40,086 bases of DNA from a virus. Below the pieces are notes generated by a model, which had not been told where the DNA came from, ran no database searches, and was given only the letters and a program-made list of their open reading frames with translations. Positions within the stretch are counted from its first letter, which is position 1; the number at the start of each line of letters is the position of its first letter. This document shows positions 421 to 40,086 of this stretch, one piece after another. The stretch spans positions 1 to 40,086 of the IMG/VR virus record IMGVR_UViG_3300036770_005257; one strand, 5' to 3'. Both the position numbers and the translations under genes were made by a program.

Positions 421-1326
421 GTGAGTATGAAAACCAAAACCGAAACGGGCGCGGGGAACTTTCCCGCCGCGCATATCGTCGAAAAAATAGTGGCCGCGCT
501 TGAGCAAGGCGACATTCCCTGGAAAAAACCGTGGAGAAGTTGCCGCGCTCATAATGCGGTAACGCGCCATGAGTACACGGGAGTGAATTCTCTGCTGCTG
601 AACCTGGCCGCGCATTATCCTGACCCGCGCTTTCTGACATATAAGCAAGCGCAAGCGATGGGCGCGCAAGTCAGGAAAGGCGAGAAGGGTTGGCCGGTTG
701 TGTTCTATTCAACCATTGTGAAGAAAGGCGAGGAGCAGAAAGACAACGGGGAGAAAGAAGCAACCGCCCGCCGTTTTCGCTTTATGCGATACTATACAGT
801 CTTCAACGCGTGCCAGGTTGACGGTTTGCCCGCGTTGGATGAATCCGCGCCGGTGGCAACGTTGACCGCGCCCGCTGACATTGTGCAACGCATGCCGCGC
901 CGCCCGCAGATTGCTGACGGTTCGCGCGCTTGTTACAACGTCCTGGCGGACCGCGTGGAGATGCCGCCGCGCACTGCCCACTGGAACAGTGCTGAAGAAT
1001 ATCACTCAACACTGTTTCATGAACTAGTGCATGCAACCGGCCATGAATCGCGTTTGAATCGCGATCTTTCCGGCCAGTTCTACGGGAAAGATGGGAAGTA
1101 TGCGCGGGAAGAGTTGGTAGCAGAGATAGGCGCCCAATTCCTATGTCAGGCGGCCGGGATCAATGTCCCGCAAGTTGAAGAAAACGCGGTGGCATATTGT
1201 CAGGGATGGGCGCGGGCGCTCAAAAGCGATCCGCAATCCGTCTTCTATGCCGCCGCCAAGGGCCAGGCAGCGCATGACTATATCCTAGGAGTGGCGCGAA
1301 ACGCTACAAGCGAGGGTGAATCGTGA
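421..1326 (+). CDS. ardC: ArdC-like antirestriction protein (ssDNA-binding domain plus zincin-like peptidase)
   Basis: This 301-residue protein has the two-part layout of the ArdC family. Residues about 15-105 match the N-terminal ssDNA-binding domain (IVEKIVAALEQGDIPWKKPW, NAVTRHEYTGVN, FLTYKQAQAMGAQVRKGEKG). The C-terminal half is a zincin-like metallopeptidase domain with H200-E201-x-x-H204 and H208, and a likely third ligand at E235 (LVAEIGAQF). ArdC homologues travel on plasmids and phages and shield incoming DNA from restriction. Being first in the early operon fits expression on entry. The frame opens at GTG 421 with an ATG two codons later (427). No Shine-Dalgarno is seen, so the message may be leaderless or start at 427. 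The next gene overlaps the stop by GTGA. Confidence 0.9.
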   Translation: MSMKTKTETGAGNFPAAHIVEKIVAALEQGDIPWKKPWRSCRAHNAVTRHEYTGVNSLLLNLAAHYPDPRFLTYKQAQAMGAQVRKGEKGWPVVFYSTIVKKGEEQKDNGEKEATARRFRFMRYYTVFNACQVDGLPALDESAPVATLTAPADIVQRMPRRPQIADGSRACYNVLADRVEMPPRTAHWNSAEEYHSTLFHELVHATGHESRLNRDLSGQFYGKDGKYAREELVAEIGAQFLCQAAGINVPQVEENAVAYCQGWARALKSDPQSVFYAAAKGQAAHDYILGVARNATSEGES

Positions 1327-1581: not shown

Positions 1582-1627
1582 TTCCCGCAACTGTCCCGGT
1601 GTTCGATCCGCCGGGATAGGACGGGAA
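1582..1627 (+). promoter_or_regulatory. Interrupted hairpin upstream of the clamp-like gene
   Basis: Two stacked arms, TTCCCG/CGGGAA (1582-1587 with 1622-1627) and TCCCGG/CCGGGA (1594-1599 with 1611-1616), enclose an 11-nt loop. No T-run follows, so it is not a classical terminator. It may act in attenuation, RNA stability or protein binding. Similar GC-rich hairpins follow in the next two gaps of the same operon. Confidence 0.45.
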
Positions 1628-1646
1628 TGGCGTTAGCCAGGCCCAT

Positions 1647-1700
1647 ATGAAAACCAAAAAGAAAGGGAAAGAAAAACATGAAAATAGACAACATCTATAA
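1647..1700 (+). other. Possible 17-aa basic leader ORF / A-rich leader
   Basis: ATG at 1647 (in CATATG) opens MKTKKKGKEKHENRQHL and stops at 1698-1700, overlapping the clamp gene start at 1678. The A-rich DNA also supplies GGGAAAG as a ribosome-binding site for that gene. A very similar leader occurs at 2313. It could be a regulatory leader peptide or simply a purine-rich initiation region. Confidence 0.3.
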
Positions 1701-2235
1701 AATTGAAGAGGCAGCGTCGGATGATTCTCGCCGGTTGGCGATCAATTCAGTCCACGTTTCCAAAGTTGACGGGAGCGCCAAAGCAGTTGCAACCGACGGG
1801 AGGATCATGGCGCTGGTCCCGGTTGAATTAGAAGAGGGAGACAGTGAAAACGTAAGCGTACGGCCGGATGCGTTCACCGTTGCCAGGAAAGAAGCGAAGA
1901 GCAGGAAAAACCTGCTTTCCCTTATTAAGTTAAACGGTAGCGCGACGGTAAAGTTGGAGGACGGCGAGAGGTCTTTCGCCTACGTTGACGTGAATTATCC
2001 CAACTTCCACCAGGTATTACCCAAGCCAGCGGAAAAGACGGTGCAGGTCGCACTGGATATTAAGTTACTTACGCGCTTGTGGAAGGCACTTGGAGGAGAG
2101 GCAGGAAAGGAAGCGGGAGTTATCCTTACAATCGCGCTTGGCGCGGATGGTAAGGCAGACACGTTCCGCCCGGTTGAAGTTAAAACCCGATGCGGTGAAG
2201 GCTACGGGATCATTATGCAGTTGCGAACTGCCTAA
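1678..2235 (+). CDS. Two-domain sliding-clamp-like protein (DnaN-related)
   Basis: This 185-residue protein carries two signatures of the bacterial DNA polymerase III beta clamp in the right order. VATDGRIMALVPV (about residues 38-50) matches the VATDGHRLAV...P strand-turn of clamp domain 2. YPNFHQVLPKP (about 103-113) matches FPDYRRVLPK at the domain 2-3 border. The C-terminus GYGIIMQLRTA resembles the final strand AYVVMPMRL. The usual beta clamp has about 366 residues and three domains; here domain 1 is absent and the third domain is shortened. Beta clamps form rings that hold polymerase on DNA. This version might form a ring of different stoichiometry, bind the host clamp, or act as a decoy. 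The start is ATG 1678, preceded by GGGAAAGAAAAAC. The clamp relationship rests on motifs seen by eye. Confidence 0.7.
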   Translation: MKIDNIYKIEEAASDDSRRLAINSVHVSKVDGSAKAVATDGRIMALVPVELEEGDSENVSVRPDAFTVARKEAKSRKNLLSLIKLNGSATVKLEDGERSFAYVDVNYPNFHQVLPKPAEKTVQVALDIKLLTRLWKALGGEAGKEAGVILTIALGADGKADTFRPVEVKTRCGEGYGIIMQLRTA

Positions 2236-2801: not shown

Positions 2802-2981
2802 ATGGACGAAAACATAAAAGAGTATCTGGCTTTTATCGGCAGCAAGGGCGGCCGGAAAACGGGAGCATCAAAGCGAAGGTCGCGGGAGCATTACGCCAAG
2901 ATTGCTGAGATTCAACGGGAGCGCTGGAAACGGTACCGCAAGGCCAAGGAAGCCTCTATAAGGAGCGGGAGCGTTAAGTAA
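2802..2981 (+). CDS. Small basic protein, 59 aa
   Basis: ATG at 2802 follows a GGAGG ribosome-binding site with good spacing. The protein starts MDENIKEYLAFIGSKGGRKT and continues as a highly basic helix (KIAEIQRERWKRYRKAKE). The SKGG...K...R...RW pattern resembles small basic proteins often found on phages and plasmids, likely nucleic-acid associated. The specific role is unknown. It is the last plus-strand gene before a convergent junction. Confidence 0.6.
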   Translation: MDENIKEYLAFIGSKGGRKTGASKRRSREHYAKIAEIQRERWKRYRKAKEASIRSGSVK

Positions 2982-4080: not shown

Positions 4081-4688
4081 TTGGCCTCACTCCAATCCCC
4101 AACCGTGACCTCCCCGTCGCTGGCCGCCACAATCCTGCCGTTGCAGGCTTTTTTGGCCATATCCAGTTGATGCACAAAGTCTTCATCCACACAAAGGGCG
4201 ACCTGCCTTGGTTGTCTCGGTCCTCGCCTTTTTACCCTTTTGTTGATTGATAGCGACTTGTGTTGTTTTGGGACAGATGGGACGGGTTTTTCCAAGTCCA
4301 TTGCACACACGGTGCGCTTATTAGCGGTGTCCTTATATGTATGTTTAGATTCTCTCGTGTGTGCGCGTAGGTTAGAAAAAGGTGTCCCATCTGTCCCAAA
4401 ATACCCTTTTGGGCTATGTTTTTGGGGTTTGAACGGCTTTATGACGATCCGAATGGGTTGTTTGCCACCCCTGCCAGCCCCCTTGCGGTCCCCGGCCAGC
4501 TTGGCGATGAGCGACCTGTGAGCCTTGTTCTTGGGGTACTTGGCGCAGCCGAACTTGCCGTCCGCCCGGATGTAGAGGTGTTGCCCCTGCCTGTCCTCGC
4601 CCTTGCTGGCGCAGGCCGGGCACCTTGCCCGCTGACCCCCGCCCGGCCCCTTCTTGACCTTCTCCAGTTTATTGAGGTCCAGAGCCAT
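4077..4688 (-). CDS. Zinc-ribbon protein, primase-associated
   Basis: This 203-residue protein has an N-terminal zinc-ribbon-like domain. RCPACASKGEDRQGQHLYI, then GKFGCAKYPKNKAHR (about residues 22-58), resembles the zinc-binding module of CHC2/DnaG-type primases. The middle (about 75-165) is basic and low in complexity, more AT-rich than its surroundings. The C-terminus (ALCVDEDFVHQL, GRIVAASDGEVTVGDW) is a short beta-rich unit. The gene overlaps the PrimPol-helicase gene by 20 nt. It may supply template recognition for primer synthesis in trans, because the PrimPol lacks a zinc ribbon. That role is inferred. Confidence 0.65.
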   Translation of the reverse strand: MALDLNKLEKVKKGPGGGQRARCPACASKGEDRQGQHLYIRADGKFGCAKYPKNKAHRSLIAKLAGDRKGAGRGGKQPIRIVIKPFKPQKHSPKGYFGTDGTPFSNLRAHTRESKHTYKDTANKRTVCAMDLEKPVPSVPKQHKSLSINKRVKRRGPRQPRQVALCVDEDFVHQLDMAKKACNGRIVAASDGEVTVGDWSEAK

Positions 4689-6663
4689 AAAACTCCTCGG
4701 GTGCGGGCGGTTGCTGGCCGTCCACCCGGATGTTCCTGAACCCGCGCTTGCTCCTGCCCTTGCCCTCCAGGCTGTGGCTTTGCGTGACCTGCCGCAGCTC
4801 CAGCATCTTCTGGTTGATGACCCGCTGTAGCTTGGCCTGTTCCATGGCCACCCAGCCCCGCTCGGCGCAGTACTCGCCGTAGGCCGTGATAAACTCGTCG
4901 TTGGAGACGGTTGCGCCCGGATCCTTGTGAACCCGCTCCATGATGAAGTGGGTTACACTGTCCGACTCGGCCAGAAGGTTCTCCACCTTGCGCCGCTGCG
5001 CCTCCCCGATTCGGATGTCGCCCGTCTCCCTGACGTCCTGGAGCAATGCTTGGAAGCCTCTTAAAAACCACGCCAGGATCGCCGGCCCCTCCTCCTCGAC
5101 CAACTTCTCGGCAAAGCGGTCGATCTTCTTGGCGGGGGGAGGTTGGTTAAACTCAATGAGCAAAAGCCTCCGCCCCCACGCATCCACGTCGCCCTCCAGC
5201 GCCACCTTCAGCCTTTCGTTGGCGGTGATGACGATGTTGAAGTTGCCGTGCAGGACCACCCCGTCGTTCAGCCCCTTGCCCTCCGCCTCGATGGTGTCCC
5301 CGCCCGTCAGCGCCTTGATGACCTTGGCTCCCGGCGTGGACAGGAAGTTGCCCGGAACGTCGGTGCCGGAAAGCAGGGTCTTGGCGCGGAAGCGGAACAG
5401 CTCGAACTGGTTGTTGAGGTGGCCGGTTCGCAGGCTGGCCATGTTGTGCTTTCCGACCAGAAGCATCTTGACGCTGACCAGCGTGGACTTGCCGCCCCCG
5501 GCTTGGCCAAACAGCACCATCAGCCTTTGGATGATGTTGCGCCCAAACAGGCACATCCCGCCATACTTCTGGAGCAGCTCGACATCCTCCGTGCTGGCCA
5601 GCGTGGGCAAAACCAGCTCCTTCAAAAACCTCTTAGGCTCCAGGTCGATGCCCTGAAACTCGATGGGGGATTGGTTTCGGGAGAAGAAGTCCGGGCTGAA
5701 CTCCTGCTCGTGCAGGGTGCCGTCCTCGTCAAAGGTCAGGTACACGTTGGCGCAGTGGACGCCGTGGGCCGCCTTCTCGGTGAAGGCATCCCGCACCTCG
5801 GCCATGCCGCGCAGTTGCCGGGTGATGCCCGACAGCACGCGGTCCGACCTCATGTGCTGGGCGGAGGGCTGGTTGTTGTTGCGCCCCTGCTCAAGAATGT
5901 TGCGGCTGATCTCCTGCTTGATGACATCCTCGCTTTTGATCTCCCAAAGCCCGGTGTCGGGGTCGTAGCAGTAAAACCGCTTCTCCGAAGGCTCGTAGAG
6001 GATCTTGTTTTCCGTGCAGTACATCGCCGCCCAGAAGCCCTCGTTGACCCCGATGACCACCAAATCGTCGCCGGCCATCTTGGTCTTGAACGGGTCGCCG
6101 TGCCGCTTGACCAACTCCTCGTATTTCTTCTTTGACTCCTCCGCCTCCCACGGGCGGTCGCAGTCCTTGGGCCACTGGATGTCGGTGAAGGCAATCTCGA
6201 TGGCCGACTTCCCCTGGTTGGGGTAGCTGTAATTGGCTCCGTTGGGGTGTTTGCCATACACCACCGTCTGCCCACCCGTCCCGCGCCACTCGCCCCACGG
6301 CTCCGTTCCGGCGCTGATCTTGTGCAGGTCGGGGTACTCGCCCCTGACGATGACCCAGAAGTTCTTGCCCCGCGCACCCTTGGTCTGGAAGGTTTCGGCC
6401 AGGAAGGGGTTGAGTTTGACAAACTCCTCGGCGCGGATGTCGGAGTCCACGTCGATGGCGCACAGGTTCCCCGACGGCGCGCCCATCAGCACGCCGATGT
6501 TGCCGCTGTGCAGGCGCTCGATGTACTCCGGCCGCTGCGTGTCCTCGTAGGTCGTGTTCTGCCAGCCCGTGGCCACGGGATACTTCTGCATGGAGGGGAT
6601 GTGCAGGAACACGGGCCTGCCCCCCAGCCTGTCCTTCAGCTCGTTAAGCCAGCCCGGTTTCAT
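4669..6663 (-). CDS. Primase-polymerase / SF3 (D5-type) helicase
   Basis: This is a 664-residue fused replication protein. The N-terminal primase-polymerase domain shows GVLMGAPSGNLCAIDVDSD with the catalytic D71-x-D73 pair, and GEWRGTGGQTVVYGKHPNG (124-142), which matches the nucleotide-binding motif of bifunctional PrimPols. A linker leads to a D5-type SF3 helicase with Walker A GQAGGGKST (386-394), a KALTGGDTIEAEGKG segment, ITANERL and WGRRLLLIEF, the family's sensor and arginine-finger region. The protein should open the origin, prime and perhaps extend DNA. No separate DNA polymerase gene exists in the genome. The ATG at 6663 overlaps the stop of the 43-residue gene. Confidence 0.93.
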   Translation of the reverse strand: MKPGWLNELKDRLGGRPVFLHIPSMQKYPVATGWQNTTYEDTQRPEYIERLHSGNIGVLMGAPSGNLCAIDVDSDIRAEEFVKLNPFLAETFQTKGARGKNFWVIVRGEYPDLHKISAGTEPWGEWRGTGGQTVVYGKHPNGANYSYPNQGKSAIEIAFTDIQWPKDCDRPWEAEESKKKYEELVKRHGDPFKTKMAGDDLVVIGVNEGFWAAMYCTENKILYEPSEKRFYCYDPDTGLWEIKSEDVIKQEISRNILEQGRNNNQPSAQHMRSDRVLSGITRQLRGMAEVRDAFTEKAAHGVHCANVYLTFDEDGTLHEQEFSPDFFSRNQSPIEFQGIDLEPKRFLKELVLPTLASTEDVELLQKYGGMCLFGRNIIQRLMVLFGQAGGGKSTLVSVKMLLVGKHNMASLRTGHLNNQFELFRFRAKTLLSGTDVPGNFLSTPGAKVIKALTGGDTIEAEGKGLNDGVVLHGNFNIVITANERLKVALEGDVDAWGRRLLLIEFNQPPPAKKIDRFAEKLVEEEGPAILAWFLRGFQALLQDVRETGDIRIGEAQRRKVENLLAESDSVTHFIMERVHKDPGATVSNDEFITAYGEYCAERGWVAMEQAKLQRVINQKMLELRQVTQSHSLEGKGRSKRGFRNIRVDGQQPPAPEEFYGSGPQ

Positions 6664-6791
6664 CTGGAAACTTCCGGCTTTGTTTCATGGGCGGGAACAA
6701 GCCCAGGGGCGGAGAAACCTCCACGCCACAAGGGAAACAAACCCACCGTCGCAGGTTCTCCCTGCGCACCATTCGCCGGTTTGAAAGTCAC
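6660..6791 (-). CDS. Small hypothetical protein, 43 aa
   Basis: GTG at 6791 overlaps the stop of the glycosyltransferase gene (GTGA), and the TGA at 6660 overlaps the PrimPol ATG. It begins VTFKPANGAQGEPATVGLFP and ends ETKPEVSR. The coupled position on both sides and the exact filling of the gap are the evidence for translation. No family is recognised. Confidence 0.5.
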   Translation of the reverse strand: MTFKPANGAQGEPATVGLFPLWRGGFSAPGLVPAHETKPEVSR

Positions 6792-7903
6792 TCCCTCTGC
6801 GCCTCCATCGCTTCCTTCGCCCTGCCCACAATCATCTCCGCCGTCACCGCCCGGATGGCGTTGCAATGTAGTTGCGTCCCCTTGGTGCGGTTGGTGGCGT
6901 CCTTGCACTTGGCCTGGGGCAGCCCCATCTGCGGGTGGCAGGGTGCGTGCGGGCAGACCGATGGCGCGTAGCAGGGGAAGGAGAGGGGATAGTAAGAGCA
7001 GCGGTCCTCGGGCGCGTAGCTGCCCCAGATCGACACCGTGGCCGTGCCTACCCCCGCGCTGGCGTGAAGCACTGCGCTGTCAGGGCAGACCACAAAGTCG
7101 GCCCCTTGTAAAACAGGAAGCAGCGTCCTGAACTGCGCAGTTGAGTTGTAAAGGTCAAACACCCGCTTGTGGTCGAGCCGAAAGTCCACCGACGGGCTGG
7201 CACCGACAATGACAGCGCGGTGGCCGGGAAACTCCTCTAACAGCGCCAGCACCGCCACCTTGCCCTGCTCGACAGGGTAGGACCGCGTCGGGCCGGAAGC
7301 GTTGACGTGGTACACAAAGTACGGCTCTGGGATCGGCCACTTGTTCTGCTTCTTTAGCTCATCCATGTCCGTCGCGATCACCGTCAGCGTCGGCCGCTTG
7401 TAGATGGCATCCACCTTGACCTCGTCCGTCTCCGCCCCCATCCACCTGTAAATCCTGTCCCAGAAGCATCCCGGCCCCGTGCCAAGCTCTGACCCCATGA
7501 CTTTCCCGCTAAACAAATCGTCGAGAGGCACGTGCGCGTCCACCGCGTCCCACGCCTCTGCGACCGCTGGCAGCGGTATCAGCCTTGCCCCCAGCCCTCC
7601 GTACAATGTCAGGTTGCGGGCAGGTGCGTACACGTCCACCGTGCCACCACTCTTCTCGACCAGGTAACGCACGATGCCCGTTGCCATGATGGCATCGCCA
7701 AGGGCGCCCGACCGATAGACTGCCGTGATCCCGCCCGTGGCGCGGCCGGGGAAGTAGGGCTTGATCTTGTGCGGGCAGGGGAAGAAGTCTTGGTTGAATG
7801 GATGGCCGGTCAGCTCGTCGGGCAGGACATACGTGACCAAGGGCCAGCAATGGTTGTCGTCGATCTTGTGGGTGCCCGGCGTGCGGTTGGTCCAGAGCTT
7901 CAT
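6788..7903 (-). CDS. Glycosyltransferase family 9 (heptosyltransferase-like)
   Basis: With the start at ATG 7903 (overlapping the upstream stop) the product has 371 residues. YRSGALGDAIMATGIVRYL is the N-terminal GT9 signature loop. GADFVVCPDSAVLHASAGVG, then VSIWGSYAPEDRCSYYP, matches the C-terminal GT-B sugar-nucleotide-binding region (D-S/T-x-x-x-H-A...G). The C-terminus is rich in Cys and His (PCYAPSVCPHAPCHP), suggesting a small metal site. GT9 enzymes normally add heptose to lipopolysaccharide core. In a phage replication operon the enzyme could modify host surface glycans or phage DNA; the sequence does not say which. Confidence 0.85.
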   Translation of the reverse strand: MKLWTNRTPGTHKIDDNHCWPLVTYVLPDELTGHPFNQDFFPCPHKIKPYFPGRATGGITAVYRSGALGDAIMATGIVRYLVEKSGGTVDVYAPARNLTLYGGLGARLIPLPAVAEAWDAVDAHVPLDDLFSGKVMGSELGTGPGCFWDRIYRWMGAETDEVKVDAIYKRPTLTVIATDMDELKKQNKWPIPEPYFVYHVNASGPTRSYPVEQGKVAVLALLEEFPGHRAVIVGASPSVDFRLDHKRVFDLYNSTAQFRTLLPVLQGADFVVCPDSAVLHASAGVGTATVSIWGSYAPEDRCSYYPLSFPCYAPSVCPHAPCHPQMGLPQAKCKDATNRTKGTQLHCNAIRAVTAEMIVGRAKEAMEAQRE

Positions 7904-8364
7904 TTGCGTTTGCCCTTCATGCGCTTGGCGTAGGGGCTGAATCCCTGCATGGCGGCGTGGACGACGGCGGTGTGGTTGCATCCCCACGCCCGCGCAATCT
8001 GCTGGAAGGTGTAGCCCTGCTCGCGCTGCACCTTCCAAAGCGTCCACCGCTTGGCCGTGACCTGGCTGGTGCGGTTGCCGCCGCCCGACCTGCGCTCGCC
8101 CCGTTTGACCTTGGCTGGTTTGATCCGCAGCTCCTTGGGGACGACGATGTCGCGCTCATCCAATACGCCCGCCAGCGCGGCCGAGGCTTGGCGCTGGTTA
8201 TCCTCGCGGATGGTGACGCGGTTGGCGGCCAGCTCCTGGCGCAGTTGGCGAAGACTCTCCGCCGTCTGTTTGCAGAGCAGTTCCAGCTCCTCGTTCCTTC
8301 TTTCCGTCTGGCTGACGCGGTAGGTCAGGGCCGAGATGGCGGGGTCAATCAGGGTGTCTTTCAT
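7900..8364 (-). CDS. Coiled-coil protein with DnaA-domain-IV-like HTH
   Basis: In this 154-residue protein, residues about 15-50 form a heptad-like coiled coil (RRNEELELLCKQTAESLRQL). A basic linker follows (KVKRGERRSGGGNRTSQ), then a C-terminal helix-turn-helix, YTFQQIARAWGCNHTAVVHA. The last part resembles the DnaA signature (G-R-D-H-T-T-V-x-x-A) used to read DnaA boxes, with N in place of D. It could bind an origin or act as a regulator. The coiled coil suggests a dimer. The ATG at 8364 follows the upstream stop with no gap. Confidence 0.65.
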   Translation of the reverse strand: MKDTLIDPAISALTYRVSQTERRNEELELLCKQTAESLRQLRQELAANRVTIREDNQRQASAALAGVLDERDIVVPKELRIKPAKVKRGERRSGGGNRTSQVTAKRWTLWKVQREQGYTFQQIARAWGCNHTAVVHAAMQGFSPYAKRMKGKRK

Positions 8365-10077: not shown

Positions 10078-10298
10078 CGCTTTGCTTTCTTTTTGCCGCT
10101 TCTGTCCCGGCACCAGACGGCGTAGGTGTTCCACTGGTAGGCCGCGTCCTGGGCGGCCTGCTTGTCCTCAAACAGATCGGTCAGCGGCGGCAGGCCGTCG
10201 GGCGGCTCGGCTCCCCACAGGCGGGGGCCGATTGGGTTCCCGCTGGTGGTGTGCAACCGCCACCGCCCGCACTCCTCGACCACCTTCACAAACGTCAT
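10059..10298 (-). CDS. Hypothetical protein, 79 aa
   Basis: The ATG at 10298 overlaps the stop of the GT8-like gene. The protein is tryptophan-rich with a strand-rich N-terminus (MTFVKVVEECGRWRLHTTSG), a helix (EDKQAAQDAAYQWNTYAVWC) and a basic tail (KKKAKRWTRKG). This resembles small beta-beta-alpha domains, but no family can be named. Confidence 0.55.
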   Translation of the reverse strand: MTFVKVVEECGRWRLHTTSGNPIGPRLWGAEPPDGLPPLTDLFEDKQAAQDAAYQWNTYAVWCRDRSGKKKAKRWTRKG

Positions 10299-10960
10299 CG
10301 CCCCAGCTCCTTCAGCTTCTCGTCATCCGCCTTGATCGTCTCAATCAGCTTGTCCATGTCTGCCGACTGCCCGGCGTAATGAATAATCTTGGCGTCGGCG
10401 TGACGGTTCAGCCCAAAGTGTTCCTCCACCGAAGTCATGCAGTTGTAGGCCGGGTCCAGGTCCTCCAGCGTGATCCCCCACAAATGCGCCATGATGTTGA
10501 GCCACGTCTGCTCACCAAAGTGGTTGGGGTGGACGGCAAGGGGTGGCATCGACAGGATGCCCATAACGCGGTTCGTTATGACAAAGACGCCCGTGTTGAC
10601 ATAGAAGCGCGGCTCGATGTGTCCGCCAAAGGAGGAGGCCAGCGCCACCATGCCGGGCTTGCGGTCAAGAAACGCCCCCTCGTCAAAAGCCTTAAACGAT
10701 CCGCAACTCTCCCCGATGTCCTCACAGTCCTTGGCAATCAGCACGTCGGCGTCAAAGAAGGTGATCTGCTCGTAGCCTTTCAGCGCCATGAAGTTTGCAA
10801 TCACGCTCTTGGTGTACTGCATCGGCTCCGTCAACGGCTTGGCGATGGCCAGGAAGTCCTGCCCCGTCCGCTTGGCGTAGTCCTCCATGCGGGGGCCGGT
10901 GACTTTGAGCAGCCGTTCCCACGGCTCGCCAAAGGCCGTTGTCACCACCCCGCGCTTCAC
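10295..10960 (-). CDS. GT8-like nucleotide-sugar glycosyltransferase
   Basis: The start at GTG 10960 overlaps the upstream stop and has GGGAG 9 nt before it, giving 221 residues. The chain follows a GT-A fold: VVTTAFGEPWERLL at the N-terminus, the metal-binding FFDADVLI (D-A-D), FYVNTGVFVITN, EQTWLN, and a C-terminal HYAG that could give the third metal ligand, as in GT8 enzymes. It should move a sugar from a nucleotide donor to an unknown acceptor. It is the second glycosyltransferase of this operon, after the GT9 enzyme. Confidence 0.7.
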   Translation of the reverse strand: MKRGVVTTAFGEPWERLLKVTGPRMEDYAKRTGQDFLAIAKPLTEPMQYTKSVIANFMALKGYEQITFFDADVLIAKDCEDIGESCGSFKAFDEGAFLDRKPGMVALASSFGGHIEPRFYVNTGVFVITNRVMGILSMPPLAVHPNHFGEQTWLNIMAHLWGITLEDLDPAYNCMTSVEEHFGLNRHADAKIIHYAGQSADMDKLIETIKADDEKLKELGR

Positions 10961-11235
10961 GCCGGTAACTCCCACGTCTGGCGGCAGGCCAGGTCTTCAA
11001 GCTCATTTGTGGCGCATTGGACGATAGCCGGGTCAATCGTGGTCAGCCGGTTGCCGCTAGAGTCATAGATCCGCAGGTTCTCCACCACGGCCTCAACTGG
11101 AACTTGCGCAAAGACGTGCTGCCGAAAGCCCTCCGGCCCGATGTCCTTCTCCTCGGTCAAGACATCCACGTCGGCACTGGCTCCATACGAAACCCCTTCG
11201 TATTCAAAGTCACACTCCAGCTCGCGCCATCTCAT
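10957..11235 (-). CDS. Hypothetical protein, 92 aa
   Basis: This is an acidic beta-rich protein. It starts MRWRELECDFEYEGVSYGAS and has a central ADVDVLTEEKDIGPEG. The ATG overlaps the upstream stop, and the downstream GTG overlaps its own stop. No family is recognised. The position suggests a small replication or recombination accessory. Confidence 0.55.
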   Translation of the reverse strand: MRWRELECDFEYEGVSYGASADVDVLTEEKDIGPEGFRQHVFAQVPVEAVVENLRIYDSSGNRLTTIDPAIVQCATNELEDLACRQTWELPA

Positions 11236-13021: not shown

Positions 13022-13447
13022 TTATGGTTTGTTTGGGTTGGTTGAAATCATCTCGCCTTTGACGACAAGTGTGGGTGTTTGAGCTACACCTTGGACAACA
13101 GTTGGCCGCTCCAGAAGGGGAGGGGCCAACTCGCGTGCCAACTGGCAGACATCATCCGCGTTCATTATCACCATCCAGTTTTTTGATCCGTTACGCCGAA
13201 ACCAGACGCTTGGTATCTTTCCGCTTGGTGCGTCCGACATAGCCTGTTTGAGCCATATTTCGGGCTTTAACGCCTGGCACCGCTTGGCCTCGACGTGGAA
13301 GGGGAAGTTGCCGCAGACCACGTCCCCGGAGCCGCCCTCCGGGTTGCCCGCATACTGCTGGCTTCGCCTTGCCTTGACCCAGCCCTGATCCCGAAGGTAG
13401 CTGGCCAACTCCCTTTCTCCCCTTGCTCCCTTTTGACGGCTGTTCAT
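13022..13447 (-). CDS. Holliday-junction-resolvase-like PD-(D/E)XK endonuclease
   Basis: The 141-residue protein opens MNSRQKGARGERELASYLRD with the conserved glutamate region. SGDVVCGNFPFHVEAKRC follows, giving the D...E-x-K catalytic core of Hjc/VRR-type nucleases, then a helix LKPEIWLKQAM. These enzymes cleave branched DNA, resolving replication or recombination intermediates before packaging. The 3' end of the upstream gene overlaps this one by about 257 nt in another frame. Its own N-terminus is a good family match, so the start is secure. Confidence 0.8.
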   Translation of the reverse strand: MNSRQKGARGERELASYLRDQGWVKARRSQQYAGNPEGGSGDVVCGNFPFHVEAKRCQALKPEIWLKQAMSDAPSGKIPSVWFRRNGSKNWMVIMNADDVCQLARELAPPLLERPTVVQGVAQTPTLVVKGEMISTNPNKP

Positions 13448-39641: not shown

Positions 39642-40086
39642 CAGAACCCTTTTTATTTTTGGTCGCAATTTTCTGGGGGGTATTATGCGTGGCGGACGGC
39701 GCGGGGGGCTGGCCGGTAGGGGGTGTCGTGTCTCGCCTTGTTGGCCGCCTAGAATACCTTGGAACTCTCCTAGCTTTCTTCTGTTGCCCTATACTTTCAG
39801 AGTAAAGTTCCAAAGTTTTACTCTTATGATTAAGGAGTTGAGGCGCACCATCAACAATACCATCAACTGATTTGACCGCATTGCTATTCATTCCGGCGAG
39901 AAGTTGAGCCAGCGCGGGCGATGCCGCGTGCGCGTGCGCAACCGCGCCCGCAACTTCCAACCGCGCAGAGGGTTGCGCGTATCCAAAAACCCTTTCAGCC
40001 AGCCAGGCCCGCGCTTGCCACGACTTCTCGCCCGCCTGGTGAATGGATTCGAGTAGGGAAGTCTCAAGCGCCCGCCTTGCCTTTTT
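39583..40086 (-). CDS. terS: Terminase small subunit, C-terminal part (plus repeat copy)
   Basis: This is the continuation of the gene whose start lies at 370. Bases 39960-40086 duplicate 1-127, and the unique part is 39583-39959. After the helical core, this end encodes GYAQPSARLEVAGAVAHAHA and a long disordered Pro/Thr/Lys-rich tail (RRPTRRDTTPPTGQPPAPSA) that ends EKPQESPQQAA. The tail, about 70 residues longer than a compact HTH small terminase needs, overlaps the terL start. Confidence 0.8.
   Translation of the reverse strand, partial: KKARRALETSLLESIHQAGEKSWQARAWLAERVFGYAQPSARLEVAGAVAHAHAASPALAQLLAGMNSNAVKSVDGIVDGAPQLLNHKSKTLELYSESIGQQKKARRVPRYSRRPTRRDTTPPTGQPPAPSATHNTPQKIATKNKKGSDASSTATNEKPQESPQQAA
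39960..40086. repeat. Right copy of 127-bp terminal direct repeat
   Basis: This is identical to 1-127. It should be collapsed to obtain the circular genome. Confidence 0.95.

Follow-up and report, generated by a model that had tools for sequence, protein, structure and literature searches.

Cellular sliding clamps function as rings. Accordingly, a widespread phage family that retains the pocket for clamp partners without the ring would be well suited to inhibit these partners or to serve as their adaptor. The bacterial beta clamp, DnaN, is a protein of about 370 aa; PCNA and gp45 of phage T4 are shorter than DnaN and consist of two complete domains that form trimers. Each clamp domain, in turn, is built of two similar motifs. 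The clamp fold can also work without a ring, as in the herpesvirus protein UL42, which contains two complete domains. Short clamp-like proteins are annotated in hundreds of phages. Those that belong to the PHROG family phrog_3007, such as gp11 of Klebsiella phage VLCpiS13a (192 aa), gp07 of E. coli phage TheodorHerzl (172 aa) and a protein of Vibrio phage 1.250.O (192 aa), are variously annotated as 'DNA polymerase III beta subunit', 'RusA-like' or hypothetical. A search of the open-licence literature revealed no description of the function or the truncated plan of the short phage clamps, and P0001, the protein analyzed here, is a divergent branch of this known but seemingly unexplained group.

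P0001 is encoded close to one end of the window, that is, the entire stretch of 40,086 nucleotides that was analyzed. The window starts and ends with an exact 127-bp direct terminal repeat (1-127 and 39960-40086), and the terS gene runs across the ends. Thus, the record is a complete phage genome of approximately 39,959 bp, so that the absence of a polymerase gene from it is meaningful. The genes and elements that are pertinent to the comparison are:

421-1326, plus strand: ArdC-type anti-restriction gene (Pfam ArdcN, 1.8e-34; MPTase-PolyVal, 4.9e-34)
1621-1683, plus strand: 63-nt clamp-gene leader, which shares 71% identity with that of the following gene (2287-2349)
1678-2235, plus strand: short clamp gene (P0001), with an ATG start and a stop codon, encoding 185 aa that correspond to DnaN domain 2 and the C-terminal half of domain 3
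2802-2981, plus strand: conserved ORF of about 60 aa at the far edge of a variable slot, with a similar ORF in 13 of the 14 clamp-less ArdC relatives
4669-6663, minus strand: PrimPol-helicase (Prim-Pol and DUF5906), the only recognized DNA-synthesis gene of the phage

Both profile matches and an AlphaFold2 model indicate that P0001 is clearly derived from the bacterial beta clamp. The NCBIfam dnaN profile TIGR00663 was matched with an E-value of 3.2e-9 (residues 6-125 against positions 138-259), although at a score far under the family cut-off (36 vs 138 bits), and significant matches were obtained to two PHROG profiles, phrog_3007 (E-value 7.5e-9, positions 17-153 of 190, with the matches of the relatives of P0001 reaching positions 182-186) and phrog_947 (DNA polymerase processivity factor, 368 positions; E-value 1.1e-5). 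The Pfam domain-2 score of P0001 itself is below the threshold (20.6 vs 27 bits), whereas the relative encoded in locus L102 exceeds it, with 38.8 bits. A profile of 16 family members matched about 44 beta clamps of the PDB, with the best E-value of 5.7e-10. The model of P0001 (pLDDT 86, pTM 0.73) consists of three beta-alpha-beta-beta-beta motifs, and a Foldseek search with this model against the PDB retrieved beta clamps (best E-value 1.3e-6, query-normalized TM mostly 0.57-0.71); many short phage proteins named clamps or DNA polymerase III beta were matched by Foldseek as well. A second model, for the distant family member L119, shows the same fold, with a weaker match (TM of 0.61-0.66 to some clamps and loose matches to others). 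The sliding-clamp-like nature of the protein that had been proposed in the earlier note is thus borne out. The two clamp signatures and the clamp-like last strand that it had recognized within 185 residues are all located in the open reading frame at 1678-2235, as seen by inspection of the sequence, namely, VATDGRIMALVPV at residues 37-49, YPNFHQVLPKP at residues 107-117 and IIMQLR at residues 178-183.

The best PHROG match of P0001, phrog_3007, carries the label of a RusA-like Holliday junction resolvase, but the clamp homology refutes this assignment for P0001. No RusA match was detected for P0001 in Pfam, and its structural matches are clamps. The phrog_3007 model yields matches in 9 of the 14 control genomes, it also scores full-length DnaN of phages, and the members of phrog_3007 are themselves clamp-like by Pfam and NCBIfam, so the label is a misannotation. 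Furthermore, the PD-(D/E)XK nuclease encoded at 13022-13447 is a better candidate for a resolvase in this phage. In RefSeq, many phage records have come to carry this label on clamp-like proteins.

In contrast to the two-domain clamp envisaged in the earlier note, P0001 comprises about one and a half clamp domains, with DnaN domain 2 running straight into the C-terminal half of domain 3, as demonstrated by sequence profiles and supported by the structure prediction. The parts of the protein and the pocket motifs map as follows, all on the plus strand:

1678-2031: residues 1-118, which correspond to domain 2 and form two beta-alpha-beta-beta-beta motifs, with pLDDT exceeding 90 for the most part; region of the TIGR00663 match
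1792-1809: pocket motif TDGRIM, aligned with E. coli beta T172-L177
1996-2016: pocket motif YPNFHQV, aligned with E. coli beta P242, R246 and V247
2032-2232: residues 119-185, the C-terminal half of domain 3 with a single motif, corresponding approximately to E. coli beta 310-366
2209-2226: C-terminal pocket strand IIMQLR, aligned with E. coli beta V360-R365

Two regions of E. coli DnaN, 148-295 and 301-365, are matched by the family profile. Because clamp domains are internally repetitive, it had to be determined which half of domain 3 remains, and a profile was constructed for this purpose from the C-terminal segment alone; it matched E. coli DnaN at 316-365 (E-value 8e-5) and nowhere else in this protein. 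The distant member L119 matches TIGR00663 at positions 303-367, and a joint alignment shows the direct junction of domain 2 with the C-terminal half of domain 3, the latter being the part where the alignment is weakest (pLDDT 70-82 and low per-sequence scores). P0001 lacks domain 1 and the initial half of domain 3, and its model contains three of the six DnaN motifs. The monomer prediction that the earlier note had suggested yielded the clamp fold, with three motifs rather than two complete lobes. The phrog_3007 short clamps of known phages, which are better conserved, are plainly built on the same truncated plan: in VLCpiS13a gp11, the end of domain 2, YPDIDRVIPKK, is followed a few residues on by the C-terminal half of domain 3, IGFNAKYLADV...VIVMPMRI.

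The short-clamp gene is real, and the family evolves under purifying selection, with dN/dS values of 0.04-0.16 where these were measurable. The possibility that the gene is a longer clamp disrupted by a frameshift or truncated was rejected given that the complete family members end in stop codons at 173-201 aa and that neither domain 1 nor the missing half of domain 3 is found beside the gene. No promoters above the chance level were detected around the clamp gene. The 63-nt leader is duplicated ahead of two consecutive genes, the clamp gene and the one that follows it.

In the E. coli clamp, the domain-3 residues of the dimer interface are I272, L273, E298, E300, E301, E303 and E304 (PMC11139829), and none of these seven is present in any of the 16 family members or the 3 relatives from known phages; with domain 1 missing as well, P0001 retains no residue that makes up this interface in E. 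coli. We infer that P0001 forms no ring through the DnaN interface. The trimer modeled on PCNA and gp45 that had been considered in the earlier note is unsupported, given that the chain consists of domain 2 and half of domain 3: P0001 shares the fold class with PCNA and gp45 but has one and a half domains and three motifs, compared to two complete domains and four motifs. The hybrid with the host clamp, also entertained there, is likewise unsupported as far as the normal DnaN interface is concerned, because domain 1 and all interface residues of domain 3 are missing. A closed clamp of a new kind could still be assembled if the half-domains of at least two chains paired with each other or if the fragment joined the host DnaN. 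With domains made of two similar motifs, two half-domains could in principle pair, and at three motifs per chain, four chains would provide the usual twelve; nevertheless, with the canonical interface residues all missing and the family being patchy and accessory, such a composite ring seems improbable.

In contrast, the pocket between domains 2 and 3 that binds partner peptides is retained: all 18 pocket positions, taken from a review (PMC11139829), align in the short-clamp family. The equivalents of R152, T172, G174, P242 and M362 are invariant in 16 of the 16 members, and those of L155, L177, V247 and V360 are hydrophobic in most of them. The mean Jensen-Shannon divergence (JSD) is 0.704 for the pocket columns vs 0.558 for the remainder of the alignment, a difference reached by none of the 100,000 permutations, although the higher conservation of the pocket columns may partly serve the fold. 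Subsite I of the pocket is conserved, whereas subsite II is partly altered in the window branch: R176 is replaced by I or M, N320 by D (with N in two members), and Y323 by L in nearly all members, whereas the equivalent of R365 is retained in about two thirds of the branch. The pocket of the phrog_3007 short clamps is more canonical, with H175, N320, mostly Y323 and R365. The replacements of H175 by R or K and of R246 by Q in the family are partly common to DnaN of a Pedosphaera genome bin, whose residues at the E. coli positions 175 and 246 are R and Q, respectively. Considering the drift of subsite II in the window branch, canonical clamp-binding motifs may be bound weakly, judging by the alignment. 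Overall, P0001 shares with bacterial DnaN (E. coli beta, TIGR00663 and two verrucomicrobial DnaN) domain 2, the 18 pocket positions and the C-terminal strand of the MPxR type, and differs from it in the absence of domain 1, the first half of domain 3 and the dimer interface, with 185 vs about 370 aa.

The reading that we favor, tentatively and at somewhat less than even confidence, is that P0001 is an accessory mimic of the clamp pocket that captures the clamp-binding motifs of host proteins; of the options listed in the earlier note, this is the inhibitor that occupies clamp partners, and it is favored by the kept and conserved pocket, the lost ring parts and the accessory location of the gene. 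Under this scenario, the DnaN fragment encoded by the phage, with domain 2 directly followed by the second half of domain 3, would be unable to form the normal ring: the groove for clamp-binding peptides of the QLxLF type is kept, and the parts that form the dimer interface of DnaN, domain 1 and half of domain 3, are lost. Judging from the position of the gene in the accessory slot behind ardC, the fragment is most likely made early. The soluble fragment would then bind the clamp-binding motifs of host proteins, the candidate partners being Pol III alpha, the clamp-loader subunit delta, Hda, MutS/MutL and Pol IV, and these partners would be withdrawn or redirected during infection. A monomeric mutant of the E. 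coli clamp binds delta about 50 times tighter than the dimer and supports no processivity (PMC11139829), and by analogy, a monomeric clamp fragment is plausible as a trap. The clamp inhibitor Gp168 of a staphylococcal phage (PDB 7evp) binds the clamp itself, whereas P0001 resembles the clamp and is predicted to bind the clamp partners; both would be phage proteins aimed at the clamp system, in the case of P0001 by prediction.

The extension of this idea to the entire group is held more tentatively still. It posits that phages turned DnaN into ringless decoys that consist of the pocket only and titrate host clamp partners during the takeover, with P0001 representing a branch that diverged on its own, probably in verrucomicrobial phages, and in which the pocket was re-tuned, and with the role shared by several hundred phage genes that now go under the names 'DNA polymerase III beta subunit' or 'RusA-like resolvase'. 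If valid, this proposal would place the family alongside Gp168 and the drugs that target the clamp, as their counterpart, and would explain the hundreds of genes that are called polymerase beta subunits or, wrongly, RusA resolvases.

The consistent changes in subsite II (N320 to D, Y323 to L and R176 to I), which look as if the pocket had been re-tuned to a single ligand, are also compatible with P0001 being a regulator that binds one phage or host partner via the altered pocket, for example, a single repair or defense protein that uses the clamp, with replication at large unaffected. The adjacent ardC gene suggests a counter-defense setting for such a regulator, but PADLOC yielded no match for either the clamp or ArdC, and we consider this possibility rather unlikely.

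With respect to the genomic context, the clamp-pocket mimic is compatible with the behavior of the gene as accessory cargo rather than a core replication gene, a pattern indicated by the variability of the slot that it occupies and by its presence in only 1 of the 50 related records, many of which are fragments. The ardC gene lies upstream of the clamp gene, within one rightward block, whereas the PrimPol and structural genes are transcribed leftward; the gene order is the same in L102, and the genes upstream of the clamp differ in L101. In 14 relatives with ArdC proteins that are 65-66% identical to that of the window phage, the slot is filled by other small ORFs, with no clamp. In these relatives, the slot after ardC, which in the window spans positions 1327-2800, contains different small genes without known functions and is a candidate site for new anti-host genes.

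The earlier note had observed that the phage encodes a PrimPol-helicase but no polymerase, and this was confirmed in the complete genome: no polymerase of family A, B or C was recognized either by a genome search or in single-protein scans. The genome-wide search for PF09250 failed to detect the Prim-Pol domain of the window itself, so its polymerase negatives are not absolute, and the conclusion relies on the protein-by-protein scans, which gave the same answer. The other recognized genes include those for an integrase, an exonuclease and the PD-(D/E)XK nuclease. The presence of a PrimPol-helicase and no other recognized polymerase would fit a ringless processivity factor or adaptor that contacts DNA via a basic helix and, similarly to UL42, which does not encircle DNA, keeps the PrimPol-helicase or a host polymerase on the phage DNA. 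A near-invariant Arg-Lys pair (R70, K71) is located on a domain-2 helix, the net charge of the family is near zero (pI 5.9-8.8) compared to the acidic DnaN (pI 5.3), and another locus, L100, likewise carries both the clamp and a PrimPol-helicase. However, the distribution of the clamp is patchy, with few of the closely related phages possessing it; its gene belongs to the ardC block, on the strand opposite to PrimPol; clamp-binding motifs occur in the phage's own proteins at the chance level (2 observed, about 1 expected); and other family members adjoin polymerases of the PolA type. Such genes are found next to the short clamps in G057, G066 and E. coli phage TheodorHerzl, and in Sa179lw, a short clamp is accompanied, by annotation, by a primase/polymerase alone. 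On balance, a tethering function seems unlikely. The link between control of the clamp and the lack of a polymerase that the earlier note had drawn is weak, given that close relatives lack the clamp and other phages with short clamps have PolA-type polymerases.

Direct relatives of P0001 are elusive: with P0001 alone as the query, none was detected in plasmids, viral contigs or phages, the latter by a tblastn search against 50,697 phage records. The relatives were reached through the neighboring terL gene, with which 80 loci from related phages were collected, a clamp relative being encoded in one of them (L080/L101), and then by growing alignments; starting from the L080/L101 protein, these alignments identified 20 loci, the majority of which contain a complete ORF, of 173-201 aa. 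One locus belongs to a genome bin of Pedosphaera, a verrucomicrobial genus, and the nearest terL among isolated phages is that of Akkermansia phages. From these two observations, we infer verrucomicrobial hosts. The family profile scores the two verrucomicrobial DnaN with 60 and 53 bits, a Microcystis phage DnaN with 47 and E. coli DnaN with 39. The top scores of the verrucomicrobial proteins among the four DnaN compared hint that the short clamp could have been captured from the host lineage. Two different DnaN genes (G067, contigs C51 and C107; loci L130 and L131) are present in the Pedosphaera bin that includes the short clamp, perhaps because it is a mixture of strains.

A repeat, AACGGTAG, occurs six times, compared to 0.58 expected, and six copies were reached in none of 100 shuffles. 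Five copies, at 1933, 2272, 2785, 2980 and 3047 on the plus strand, lie in the vicinity of the clamp gene and downstream of it, and the sixth is at 1331 on the minus strand. In related phages, with or without the clamp, up to 4 copies of AACGGTAG are present at about 1 kb downstream of ardC, intermixed with the repeats CGGGAGCGTT and CCTATAAGG. These repeats could possibly represent an origin, regulator sites or RNA. Finally, the early/replication region encompasses two glycosyltransferase-like genes, of families 9 and 8 (6788-8047 and 10295-10975, respectively, on the minus strand), and a 198-aa protein encoded on the minus strand at 8749-9345 matches phrog_3704 'ferredoxin' with an E-value of 3.8e-25 and no support from Pfam.
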